From positions 1 to 38,617 of the IMG/VR virus record IMGVR_UViG_3300032245_000616: a stretch of DNA of 38,617 nt, one strand, 5' to 3'. The position numbers and the translations under genes were made by a program. Origin of the DNA: a virus. Shown one piece after another: positions 5,370 through 21,040 of this stretch. Position 1 is the first letter of the stretch, and the number at the start of each line of letters is the position of its first letter. The notes beneath the pieces were generated by a model that saw nothing but the letters and a program-made list of their open reading frames with translations, made no database searches and was not told the DNA's origin.

Positions 5370-6164
5370 TTAAGTTGTAAACCTCATTGCGGTTGCAAAG
5401 ATTGTTCCTGCGGGGACTGTGCCTGCGGTTGCTCCCTTGCTGTTGACGACATACCTTACAACATTTGAAGCCACAGGGAAGAAGTCGGTTACGATTTGCG
5501 TGGTTCCAGTTGTCGATCCGAGCGAATTGATTGATCCGATAACTATGTCCCCCAACTCGGCTCCGGTGAGCAAGAATGTTCCGTTTGTCGTGTCTGCCGT
5601 ATTGTGCGCCGCCACAACAGCGGAGCCAAAGGATGCCGTAGCATATGATACTTTTGTTATACTTGGTCCAGCAGCTCCACCAATCTCAAGCGTTCCAACC
5701 GTGGCAAGCCCGGTATTGTTAATCGTCGTGGAGGCAATCGTGCCGATCGTTGCCGTTCCGGTAGACATGGTCACGTTAGTTCCAAATGTTACCGGGCCAA
5801 GCTGAAGAGGGATTGTAGCAGTGCTGATTGTGGCAGTGCTGATTGTAGCGGTGCTGATCGTTGCTGTGCTGATTGTAGCTGTACTGATCGTAGCAGTGCT
5901 AATGCTGGCAGTTGCGATCGTTGTCGTGCCTGTGGAAAAAGTGGTGTTGGAACCAAACGTGACCGGGCCCAGGAGCGTCGAAGCACCATCCACTGCAAAC
6001 GTTCCGGTGCTCTTTGCCCCTGTGGTGCATATCTGTAACGCCGAGACGCCTGCCTCGTCTCCACTAGAAACGGCTCGCATGGTTCCGTCGACAATGTTAC
6101 TACCAAACGTCTTTAGGAGTTGGTTGTAGCTAGTGCTGATTGTCTGTGTGCCAAGTGTAGCCAT
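5370..6164 (-). CDS. Repeat-rich structural protein with STATI pentapeptides
   Basis: 264 aa. The core contains about seven tandem copies of the pentapeptide S-T-A-T-I (residues about 85-120), flanked by two copies of a LGPVTFGSNTTFSTGT-like segment (GPVTFGTNVTMSTGT after the array). Regular five-residue repeats of this kind are typical of left-handed beta-solenoids. The C-terminal 90 residues look globular. The start codon shares bases with the stop of the upstream 75-aa gene. It is probably a fibre or decoration component; the precise role is unknown. Confidence 0.7.
   Translation of the reverse strand: MATLGTQTISTSYNQLLKTFGSNIVDGTMRAVSSGDEAGVSALQICTTGAKSTGTFAVDGASTLLGPVTFGSNTTFSTGTTTIATASISTATISTATISTATISTATISTATISTATIPLQLGPVTFGTNVTMSTGTATIGTIASTTINNTGLATVGTLEIGGAAGPSITKVSYATASFGSAVVAAHNTADTTNGTFLLTGAELGDIVIGSINSLGSTTGTTQIVTDFFPVASNVVRYVVNSKGATAGTVPAGTIFATAMRFTT
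5812..5910 (-). repeat. 15-bp coding minisatellite (STATI array)
   Basis: Six complete 15-bp units (5821-5910) plus a partial one. The plus-strand unit is GTGCTGATTGTAGCA with scattered changes. Differences fall mostly at third codon positions, so the peptide repeat is kept while the DNA drifts. The copy number could change by slippage or recombination. Confidence 0.85.
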
Positions 6165-17195: not shown

Positions 17196-17273
17196 GAAAA
17201 GCCCCCGCGGTTGGAGCGGTACCGCTAGCGAAGCGAAGCGGGGGGACTTTAGTCCCCCGCTCTAACAGGGGGC
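17196..17273 (-). terminator. Large branched intrinsic terminator
   Basis: On the minus strand GCCCCC (17273-17268) pairs with GGGGGC (17206-17201) and is followed by TTTT. Inside are a strong hairpin (17238-17260, arms GGGGGACT/AGTCCCCC) and the palindrome AGCGGTACCGCT (17215-17226). This would end early transcription after the 65-aa gene. The TATAAT box just upstream means a short structured RNA of about 80 bases could also be made here. Confidence 0.65.
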
Positions 17274-17319
17274 TGTTTCACCATTATATACATATAAGGG
17301 GAACGAAATGGTGAAACAG
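17273..17319 (-). promoter_or_regulatory. 13-bp perfect inverted repeat around a TATAAT box
   Basis: CTGTTTCACCATT (17273-17285) and AATGGTGAAACAG (17307-17319) are perfect inverses separated by 21 bases. On the minus strand the sequence reads TATATGTATATAATGGTG, placing a consensus TATAAT at the edge of one arm. No good -35 box is visible at 16-18 bases. The most likely reading is an operator that covers a promoter. A hairpin in the early-gene message is the alternative. Confidence 0.55.
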
Positions 17320-17365
17320 AGTAGAACCCGGGTTTTACAGAGTAAGGCGAAATGACTGTTTTAGC

Positions 17366-17563
17366 CTAGTTTTGAGCACTAAAACCAACCACCGGAAGTT
17401 CTTTCCCGGCCCAATTCCTGTTCCCTTTAGGCGCCCCACCCTTCTTACCATTAGCGATCGATGCCTTGGCCTTAGCCTCCGACCTCACCTTGCCGATCCT
17501 GGACGCGAATAACGCCACCGGGACCGCACATCTGCAACTAGGACATTCAATTGATTGACTCAT
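17366..17563 (-). CDS. Small Cys-motif basic protein
   Basis: 65 aa from the ATG at 17563, which overlaps the Mom-like stop (ATGA). It has CPSCRCAVP near the start, a possible half zinc site, then a basic Gly/Lys/Ala-rich region (KVRSEAKAKASIANGKKGGA) of a kind common in small phage proteins that may bind nucleic acid. It is the last gene before the terminator. No defined function. Confidence 0.65.
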   Translation of the reverse strand: MSQSIECPSCRCAVPVALFASRIGKVRSEAKAKASIANGKKGGAPKGNRNWAGKELPVVGFSAQN

Positions 17564-18225
17564 TCTTGCCTCCATTCTTTCCATTCTTTCCAGTTTTGTA
17601 TCTCCCATTTCAGCAACGGCTTGTCCTTCTGATTGCAGAAATAGACAAACCTATGCTTCCTGGTCCGCGGAACGATCACTGCCTCTTCCATGGTCCGCGA
17701 GTGCCTGCTGTGCTTGTTTCCGACAACCTTGTCACCAGAAGATCTCTTGTCAGATAGTCCGGTATAGATCCAGTTCGTTGCCGAGTAGATCATTCCATTG
17801 TGTCCGGCCCCGGTATCAGCATAGCTAACCAGGATTAAGTAGGGCCGCAACCTCGTTAGCTCACGAATGCTCCAGGATATAAATCTGCTCTCAGAATTCT
17901 TGGGGCACTTATCGTCGAGCCATAGTCTATTCAACTCGTAGACCCTGGACGCATTCTCTGCCCCGCATATGCCCCTGCATAGATGGGGCGACGCGGGTTT
18001 GCCGAACGAGATCACTCCCAGAAGTTCACTGCCATGGAAGCATCCGAACGACCAGTTGCAAGGCACGGCCCGGTGCGCGTAGTGGTTGGCGACGACTACT
18101 TCATTCATCGTCTTTGACCCTATGGCCCGGAATTTAAGTTGGAGCGCAGAGGTAGGAATTGCACCTCCGTTCTCCCCTTGGAATAGGGGAAGTTCTACTA
18201 CTGAACTATCTGCGCGTAAACTCAC
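17560..18225 (-). CDS. Mom-like DNA adenine modification protein (GNAT fold)
   Basis: 221 aa from the GTG at 18225, which overlaps the upstream stop (GTGA) and has GAGG just before it. ATG at 18108 would give 182 aa. The Mom pattern is clear: VVVANHYAHRAVP, then SFGCFHGSELLGVISFGKP, YELNRLWLDDKCPKNSESRF and LILVSYADTGAGHNGMIYSA followed by NWIYTGL. In phage Mu, Mom converts adenine to a methylcarbamoyl form that blocks host restriction. The C-terminal tail here is basic and Trp-rich. The first 39 codons overlap a tRNA-like gene, so the true start is uncertain. Confidence 0.8.
   Translation of the reverse strand: MSLRADSSVVELPLFQGENGGAIPTSALQLKFRAIGSKTMNEVVVANHYAHRAVPCNWSFGCFHGSELLGVISFGKPASPHLCRGICGAENASRVYELNRLWLDDKCPKNSESRFISWSIRELTRLRPYLILVSYADTGAGHNGMIYSATNWIYTGLSDKRSSGDKVVGNKHSRHSRTMEEAVIVPRTRKHRFVYFCNQKDKPLLKWEIQNWKEWKEWRQE
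18140..18215 (-). tRNA. tRNA-Gly(UCC)-like gene with encoded CCA
   Basis: A 76-base cloverleaf. Acceptor arms GCGCAGA/TCTGCGC pair perfectly and are followed by T and CCA. D-arm GTTC/GAAC encloses AGTAGTA. The anticodon stem TCCCC/GGGGA encloses TATTCCAA, reading UCC. T-arm GGAGG/CCT(A)CC encloses TGCAATT. Compared with ordinary tRNA-Gly it has one extra base in the anticodon loop (8 bases) and one bulged A in the T stem. It is either a variant tRNA or one losing function. It lies wholly inside the longest reading frame of the Mom-like gene. Confidence 0.65.
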
Positions 18226-19460: not shown

Positions 19461-20879
19461 CTAGAAACCTGGGGCTGGAACGCGGTAAACCTCGCCAAAC
19501 TGCGATTTATCCTTCATCAACTTGCCGGACTTCACCAAGCGCGTGAGGTATCTCGAGAGGGTTCCCCGCGGAATTCCCATAGCAGGATCTGCTTTCTCCC
19601 ACACCTCCTTGAACGATGAGCCTTTCTCCTTGTCAACGCACGCCATCACTTCGTCGTCCTCGTATGCCTTCTTCGATCCTTCGGTTGGTCGCGCGTCGTC
19701 CGGATTAAATTCTGCTGTGCGTTTCATCAACGGAAATTCCCATTGCACGCAAAACGGATCGATCGGCGAGAAGTCTCTCATCGTCGGCTCGACGATCAGC
19801 ACATTCTCTTCCTTGTGCGGATGCATAACGAAGATGCTGTCCGGGTCCCGGGCAAACACCGTACTGCCTGACATCTTATCAAACCCGGCCCTGTTGCCGT
19901 GGCCCTTGCTGAAGTGATGCCCGAACACGACGCTCGCGTTTGTCTCTACCGCAATGCTGTCCACCTCGTTCATCAGCGTAGCCATCTCTCCGGCGCTGTT
20001 CTCATCTCTCTCTCCGTACAGCTTGTAGATCGGGTCAAAGCATATCAGTCCGAACTCTCCGATCCTTAGCTGGTCGATTATCTTGGGCCGCAACGCACTC
20101 AGGTCCGCCGAGTGTCCTCGCAGATTCCAAACGAACAACTGGTCGTTAGGTATCTGAATGCCTAGTGCCCGGCACACGGATCTTATCCGCTCCCGAAACG
20201 AGTACTGCTGGATCTCGAAGTTAATGAACAGCACCCGAGTCTTGCGAGTAGGCATCTCCCAAAACTTTGTGCCAGACGCCACACATATCGCCAACTGCAA
20301 CAGCGTCCACGTCTTCATGCTCTTGCTGGTTCCGCCTAGCACCATCTTGCAACCGCGGTGCAGGGCACCAAAGATAATTTCCTCCGGCTTCTCAATCGCC
20401 AATTCATCTAGAGCGCTAGCCTCCATGATGAGTGGGAGATTCCCACTGCCCCATGGCTTGCTTGCCCCGGCCAGGATGTTCCTAATATCTTCCGGGCACG
20501 CGTCCTGTTCTTCCATCGCACCGAGCGCCTTGAGCGCAGCTGCGTGCATGTTCCGCATCCGGGTAGTCTTCCGCAACCTGGGCAACCAATAGTCCATCTT
20601 GGAAGCGGAGGTGATCGATCCAGACATAATCTTTAGACTGAATTCGTGCACATACTTCGGATGCTCCTTGCCGACAAACTCGCCCATGGCGACAGCGTCA
20701 GGTGGCACGCCATCCCTCAGCCCCCGGGCGACGCACCGGGCTACTGGTTGGTAGTAGTTGTGCGGGTCGAGGATCTCAGCCTTGTTCCTGTCTAAAATAA
20801 TTGGGTCGGTGAAGCATGCCGACAGCACTGCCCACTCAGCCTCGTTGTCCCGAGGTGGTCCGTAAGAGTCTTGGTTCAT
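19461..20879 (-). CDS. Replicative DNA helicase, RepA/DnaB-like AAA_25 ATPase
   Basis: 472 aa from ATG at 20879, which overlaps the upstream stop (ATGA). The N-terminal part (EWAVLSACFTDPIILDRNKA) looks like a DnaB N-terminal domain. Walker A is VLGGTSKSMKTW (about residues 180-191) and Walker B FGLICFDPI (about 276-284). SVVFGHHFSKGHG matches a later RecA-fold motif. The C-terminus (FKEVWEKADPAMGIPRGTLS, then RYLTRLVKSGKL) is a winged helix. It is the only replication motor in the genome, so the phage probably borrows the host polymerase. Confidence 0.8.
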   Translation of the reverse strand: MNQDSYGPPRDNEAEWAVLSACFTDPIILDRNKAEILDPHNYYQPVARCVARGLRDGVPPDAVAMGEFVGKEHPKYVHEFSLKIMSGSITSASKMDYWLPRLRKTTRMRNMHAAALKALGAMEEQDACPEDIRNILAGASKPWGSGNLPLIMEASALDELAIEKPEEIIFGALHRGCKMVLGGTSKSMKTWTLLQLAICVASGTKFWEMPTRKTRVLFINFEIQQYSFRERIRSVCRALGIQIPNDQLFVWNLRGHSADLSALRPKIIDQLRIGEFGLICFDPIYKLYGERDENSAGEMATLMNEVDSIAVETNASVVFGHHFSKGHGNRAGFDKMSGSTVFARDPDSIFVMHPHKEENVLIVEPTMRDFSPIDPFCVQWEFPLMKRTAEFNPDDARPTEGSKKAYEDDEVMACVDKEKGSSFKEVWEKADPAMGIPRGTLSRYLTRLVKSGKLMKDKSQFGEVYRVPAPGF

Positions 20880-21040
20880 TGTGGTTGTGTCCCCCACATG
20901 TCCTTCCAGACGGTCTTGCGCATTTGCAGAATGACTCGCCACACATTGTCAGGGAAGATCCAGCACTTCTCGACCTGGAACTGTTCTGCCAGTTTCTTTA
21001 GTTCGTTAGGGACCGCGCACTTGTAGTCGTCGATCTTCAT
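20876..21040 (-). CDS. Small protein coupled to the helicase gene
   Basis: 54 aa. Its start overlaps the upstream stop (ATGA) and its stop overlaps the helicase start (ATGA). It begins MKIDDYKCAVPNELKKLAEQ and has a Trp-rich second half (CWIFPDNVWRVILQMRKTVW). The double coupling supports a real gene and suggests a partner of the helicase, but no family is recognised. Confidence 0.7.
   Translation of the reverse strand: MKIDDYKCAVPNELKKLAEQFQVEKCWIFPDNVWRVILQMRKTVWKDMWGTQPQ

Follow-up and report, generated by a model that had tools for sequence, protein, structure and literature searches.

Comparative data indicate that one compact module, made up of short repeats, an AT-run and a covarying branched hairpin, appears to travel with the helicase gene in a group of uncultivated phages; judged from its sequence, it is on balance probably the phage replication origin or a helicase/primase loading site. 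The module was examined in the virus record IMGVR_UViG_3300032245_000616, the whole 38,617 nt of which is referred to here as the window and which carries a 123-bp direct repeat at both ends. The relatives carrying the element are dozens of uncultivated lake phages, in which its shape is kept despite changed letters, and the nearest annotated relatives of these phages infect Verrucomicrobia. It is rare for the replication origin of a dsDNA phage to be located when the phage is known from metagenomes alone; if the assignment is true, the module would supply a signature of sequence and structure by which origins of this kind could be found.

The element lies on the minus strand (Table 1). A first-pass annotation had described a perfect 13-bp inverted repeat, the hexamer TATAAT, a branched fold and TTTT on this strand, and all of these were found exactly as described, with the coordinates confirmed. 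The arms of the inverted repeat, at 17273-17285 (+) and 17307-17319 (-), are the only exact copies of CTGTTTCACCATT in the window. The AT-run sits between them, and the stem-loop begins about 10 nt after the AT-run. In the outer stem AGCCCCC (17274-17268) pairs with GGGGGCT (17206-17200), enclosing a second stem and two hairpins. Beyond this three-way shape, the element is not known to share anything with the phi29 pRNA.

Table 1. Coordinates of the element and of its presumed helicase partner in the window
Feature	Position	Strand	Remarks
Direct repeat copy CTGTAAAACC	17331-17340	-	CTGTTAAACC in many relatives; next copy 21 bp downstream; presumed protein-binding repeat
Inverted repeat, left arm CTGTTTCACCATT	17307-17319	-	Nearly invariant within the clade
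AT-run TTATATGTATATAAT	17283-17297	-	Includes TATAAT 17288-17283; presumed unwinding tract
Inverted repeat, right arm AATGGTGAAACAG	17273-17285	-	Overlapped by TATAAT
Branched stem-loop, three-way junction	17200-17274	-	Outer AGCCCCC/GGGGGCT, inner GAGCGG/CCGCTC, hairpins GGGGGACTAAAGTCCCCC and CCGCTTCGCTTCGCTAGCGG
TTTT after outer stem	17197-17200	-	Conserved in most of the clade but not farther out
DnaB-like/RepA-like replicative helicase	19461-20942	-	Winged-helix-like C-terminal region; presumed partner of the element

Comparison with shuffled sequences bore out the stability that had been claimed for the fold. Folded as RNA, the segment 17190-17325 (-) reached -55.8 kcal/mol (z = -5.85) and none of 200 shuffles was as good; with DNA parameters the same segment gave z = -5.76, again with 0/200 shuffles as good. 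The earlier reading had also been tied to covariation of the stems among relatives, and this was present. A TerL search recovered 34 related loci, with the noncoding region alignable in 21 distinct sequences. Across alignment A6 (25 distinct sequences of relatives) 99.6% of cells were paired, and 26 cells carried changes on both sides, where shuffles gave 8.6. When the divergent homologue L226, described below, was added (A7), double changes were found in 14 of 42 pairs, compared with 3.6 in shuffled and 0-3 in slid controls. One-sided stem changes were few, and most of them give G-U pairing when read on the minus strand.

Relative to the window, the element of the clade has 0-2 changes per 13-nt arm and 1-11 changes in the 73 stem positions, while fourfold sites of TerL differ between the relatives and the window at 16-44%. 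Part of this low divergence may stem from recent exchange by recombination, because some relatives have the same element with other flanks. The suggestion that TATAAT works as a promoter was not upheld: it is replaced by CAGAAT in six of the 21 distinct relatives, no -35 sequence fits at 16-18 nt and a sigma-70 scan was empty there. The hexamer is therefore not the conserved feature, which is instead the longer, preceding CCyTATATA run.

A covariance model of the clade detected one further copy, L226 (E = 3e-10). Its layout is the same, with TGTTTC arms, CCC-TATATATATATA, GAAACAG and a three-way junction, but the stems are largely different. This element lies directly behind a helicase gene, the product of which is 68% identical to the helicase of the window. 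The TerL proteins of L226 and L124 are 98% identical, whereas their helicases are only 41% identical, and the element found at this position in L124 is a different one. As TerL is near-identical and both helicase and element differ, the type of helicase is what the element follows, though simple linkage alone could also produce the pattern. An inverted-repeat pattern scan returned 41 contigs and, outside the clade, the fold was present only on that of L226.

The wider comparison covered 80 of ~550 TerL relatives. A counterpart of the element was found directly behind the primase-helicase gene in phages with 52-56% TerL identity and also in L122 and L124; across the family, element and helicase gene were paired, and the helicase types came with different types of repeat. 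The set with primase-fused helicases comprised L122, L124, L126, L128, L129, L132, L144, L155, L158, L160, L162, L163, L169, L172 and L173, and L137 is similar. Wherever downstream sequence was readable, repeats came first after the helicase stop codon, then an AT-run and then a hairpin. About four short direct repeats precede a TATATATA run, at about -52, -40, -28 and -14 relative to it. A run of this type is also found in L226 and most relatives, and ~9-16 nt beyond it is a hairpin of 60-80 nt that is often branched. The repeat motif, which was picked after viewing the sequences, was observed 30 times against 2.8 expected (0/1000 shuffles). Three or more direct repeats beside an AT-rich tract were present in most of the primase-helicase relatives, and the repeats of L137 and L144 depart from the motif. 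The four copies of L169/L172 have all switched together to a CTGAAG type, as would be expected of binding sites. A covariance model of the Y fold found no homologue in L122-L124. In the outer stems of the distant hairpins (alignment A11), pairing reached 98.3% and 5/10 pairs had double changes.

T3-T5 directly follows the stem in L126, L160, L162, L163 and L169/L172, and no T-run directly follows the outer stem in L226, L122, L124, L128, L137 and L155. A product ending in a terminator, as proposed in the first-pass annotation, is consistent with the TTTT of the window but does not hold as a general product of the element. Its proposed control of entry into the late genes was not supported, as the distant counterparts lie directly behind the primase-helicase gene and are usually far from late genes; the association with late genes belongs to the window clade.

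The helicase of the window matches DnaB-like and primase/helicase families, and its closest PDB match by sequence is RepA of RSF1010 (E = 2e-7). The AF2 model as a whole is of low quality (mean pLDDT 59); a Foldseek search with it placed DnaB first and RepA further down. The last 60 residues were modelled as H-H-H-E-E at pLDDT about 80, and in the model this C-terminus looks like a winged helix. The C-terminal region can be aligned across all helicase types and differs between repeat types, and the differences in the presumed recognition helix are only suggestive of repeat binding. The helicases of the relatives are extended at the N-terminus, and the additional part matches PrimPol weakly (6zp9, E = 0.06). 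Both helicase types, DnaB-like and primase-helicase, are encoded on contig IMGVR_UViG_3300020042_006551 (L300; helicase 90%), which ends before the element region.

Since the element has the components of known origins and in most relatives is also placed as they are, the best explanation, in which we place moderate confidence, is an origin in which the repeats would bind protein, the AT-run would be the site of unwinding and the stem-loop would serve to load helicase and primase. The repeats surrounding the AT-run would be bound by a replication protein, for which the winged-helix-like C-terminus of the phage helicase is the best candidate, and the AT-run would melt. Exposed on one of the strands and acting as DNA, the branched stem-loop would then be the platform where the helicase ring and primase assemble, so that replication would start here. 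Several observations count against an origin. In the window clade the element is ~2 kb behind the helicase gene with other genes between, and the window has only two direct repeat copies and one inverted copy. The poorly modelled helicase of the window has a DnaB-like N-terminus, and no primase domain was found in it. In several lineages TTT or more comes after the stem, and this, like the one-sided changes that leave G-U pairs, fits an RNA. The GC skew has no sign change at 17.2 kb of the window and does not support an origin there.

An origin is more likely than a small-RNA gene, which we consider unlikely. For such a gene the repeats would be activator or operator sites and the AT-run a -10 sequence (TATATA, in another register and not TATAAT), giving a structured RNA of ~80-90 nt that ends at the T-run. 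In most lineages the stem does begin where a transcript would be expected to start, ~9-16 nt past the AT-run, and the T-runs of the window clade and of the lineages listed above, together with the bias to G-U on the minus strand, point the same way. However, there is no conserved -35, the sigma-70 scan found no promoter, and the T-run is missing in other lineages. There is also no conserved loop sequence suited to pairing with a target, no second match to the arm sequence that could serve as a target in the window, and no Rfam 15 family at or above its gathering threshold. We give about the same low weight to a terminator or insulator that would lie in the early operon's 3' untranslated region and divide the operon from the next promoter (candidate at 17138-17111). 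The element is indeed placed between the early genes and the conserved promoter-like TTGCGC-N16-TACGTT upstream of the late genes, and it has a GC-rich stem followed by TTTT, but several relatives have the hairpin without the T-run. A simple terminator would also leave unexplained the conserved repeats, AT-run and primary sequence, given the divergence at TerL fourfold sites.

A late switch of the lambda type, in which a Q-like antiterminator on the inverted repeat would bypass a promoter and its immediate terminator, seems very improbable. The element is upstream of the terminase genes, and a precedent is known in Q/AlpA binding sites that are embedded in a promoter and have a terminator after them (PMC9371919, PMC6606751). 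Against this, no Q-like protein was found among the early genes scanned, a search that distant homologues could escape, and in most relatives the counterpart is not beside late genes. The functions of origin, small RNA and terminator are not mutually exclusive. A structured RNA from a repeat-controlled promoter might be used at the origin as a primer or helicase-loading guide, with the module being both small-RNA gene and origin and inherited with the helicase; we regard this combination as a little less likely than either the small-RNA gene or the terminator.

Other candidates were examined and set aside. A short plus-strand ORF, for which the loop of the hairpin offers an AAGGGG-like site, has a frame that ends early in most relatives. 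A DnaA-type initiator was looked for in the window and none was found. For a host-derived repeat, there was no convincing match in 388 genomes (from the phylum of a Verrucomicrobia MAG) and none by blastn against phages and plasmids, and in IMG/VR the core pattern was confined to this phage clade where checked.

A number of other features were seen in the same phages. The TTGCGC-N16-TACGTT sequence at 17138-17111 (-), downstream of the element, is a candidate late promoter. It is followed by a leader (17102-17026, -) with two apparently covarying hairpins, CCAGTTC/GAATTGG and CCCGGGA/TCCCGGG, plus GGGGTTTTC, and the layout of promoter and leader is kept in L122-L124. In L160, L126 and L129, extended -10-like sequences (TGGTATAAT, TGGTATATT and TGGTATACT) are found past the hairpin, on its downstream side, and just upstream of a conserved small gene encoding MxxPRGLYANINAR. 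A second long palindromic region, between the element and this small PRGLYANINAR gene, is common to L226 (3060-3200) and L124 (1490-1620). A Mom-like DNA modification gene at 17560-18225 (-) is present at the same place in some relatives and absent in others. The 5' part of the ORF as listed is overlapped by a tRNA-like cloverleaf at 18144-18215 (-; Rfam 33.5 bits, ARAGORN negative), and the ORF may start further in (ATG at ~18108). A 15-bp tandem repeat of GATTGTAGCAGTGCT type is found at 5796-5930 inside a minus-strand gene.

Among known systems, the 6S RNA/pR'-tR' region of lambda also has a TATA-like sequence closely before a terminator-like fold, upstream of late genes, but here no Q homologue was found, a -35 is lacking and the position in relatives is not tied to late genes. 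The lambda ori has four repeats (iterons) and then an AT-rich region (PMC7466680), much as in most of the distant relatives. However, the lambda repeats are inside gene O, whereas the phage element is behind the helicase gene, has a repeat core of 6 bp at 11-16-bp spacing and is followed by a branched hairpin. The oriV of RSF1010 combines repeats with hairpins recognised by the primase (PMC4434180, PMC4234260), and its RepA helicase is the closest solved relative of the phage helicase by sequence. The RepC repeats and ssi hairpins of this system resemble the arrangement seen here, but a search for RepC gave none, the hairpin of the phages is branched and longer, and the phage repeats are short.

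The Sulfolobus plasmid pRN1 has a stem-loop of ~100 nt, 54 bp behind a gene for a PrimPol-helicase-winged-helix protein, that is required for replication and is conserved in structure but not in sequence, and phages BIP-1 and BPP-1 have similar loops behind their primase genes (PMC4234260). Iterons are absent from pRN1, as noted by the authors of that work. It differs further in its SF3 helicase, where the phages have regularly spaced repeats, an AT-run and a RecA/DnaB-like helicase, which in the window clade has no fused primase domain. In part of the phages the arrangement is similar, with a long stem-loop ~50-100 bp behind a primase-helicase-winged-helix gene; this gene-adjacent position is seen in L226 and the primase-helicase relatives, while in the window the ~2 kb of other genes intervenes. 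In BPP-1 the loop is likewise branched and followed by TerS. As in pRN1, structure has been kept through sequence change, both in the clade with L226 and in the distant hairpins (double changes in A7 and A11). If the origin assignment is true, the module would unite an iteron-type origin with a stem-loop origin of the pRN1 type.
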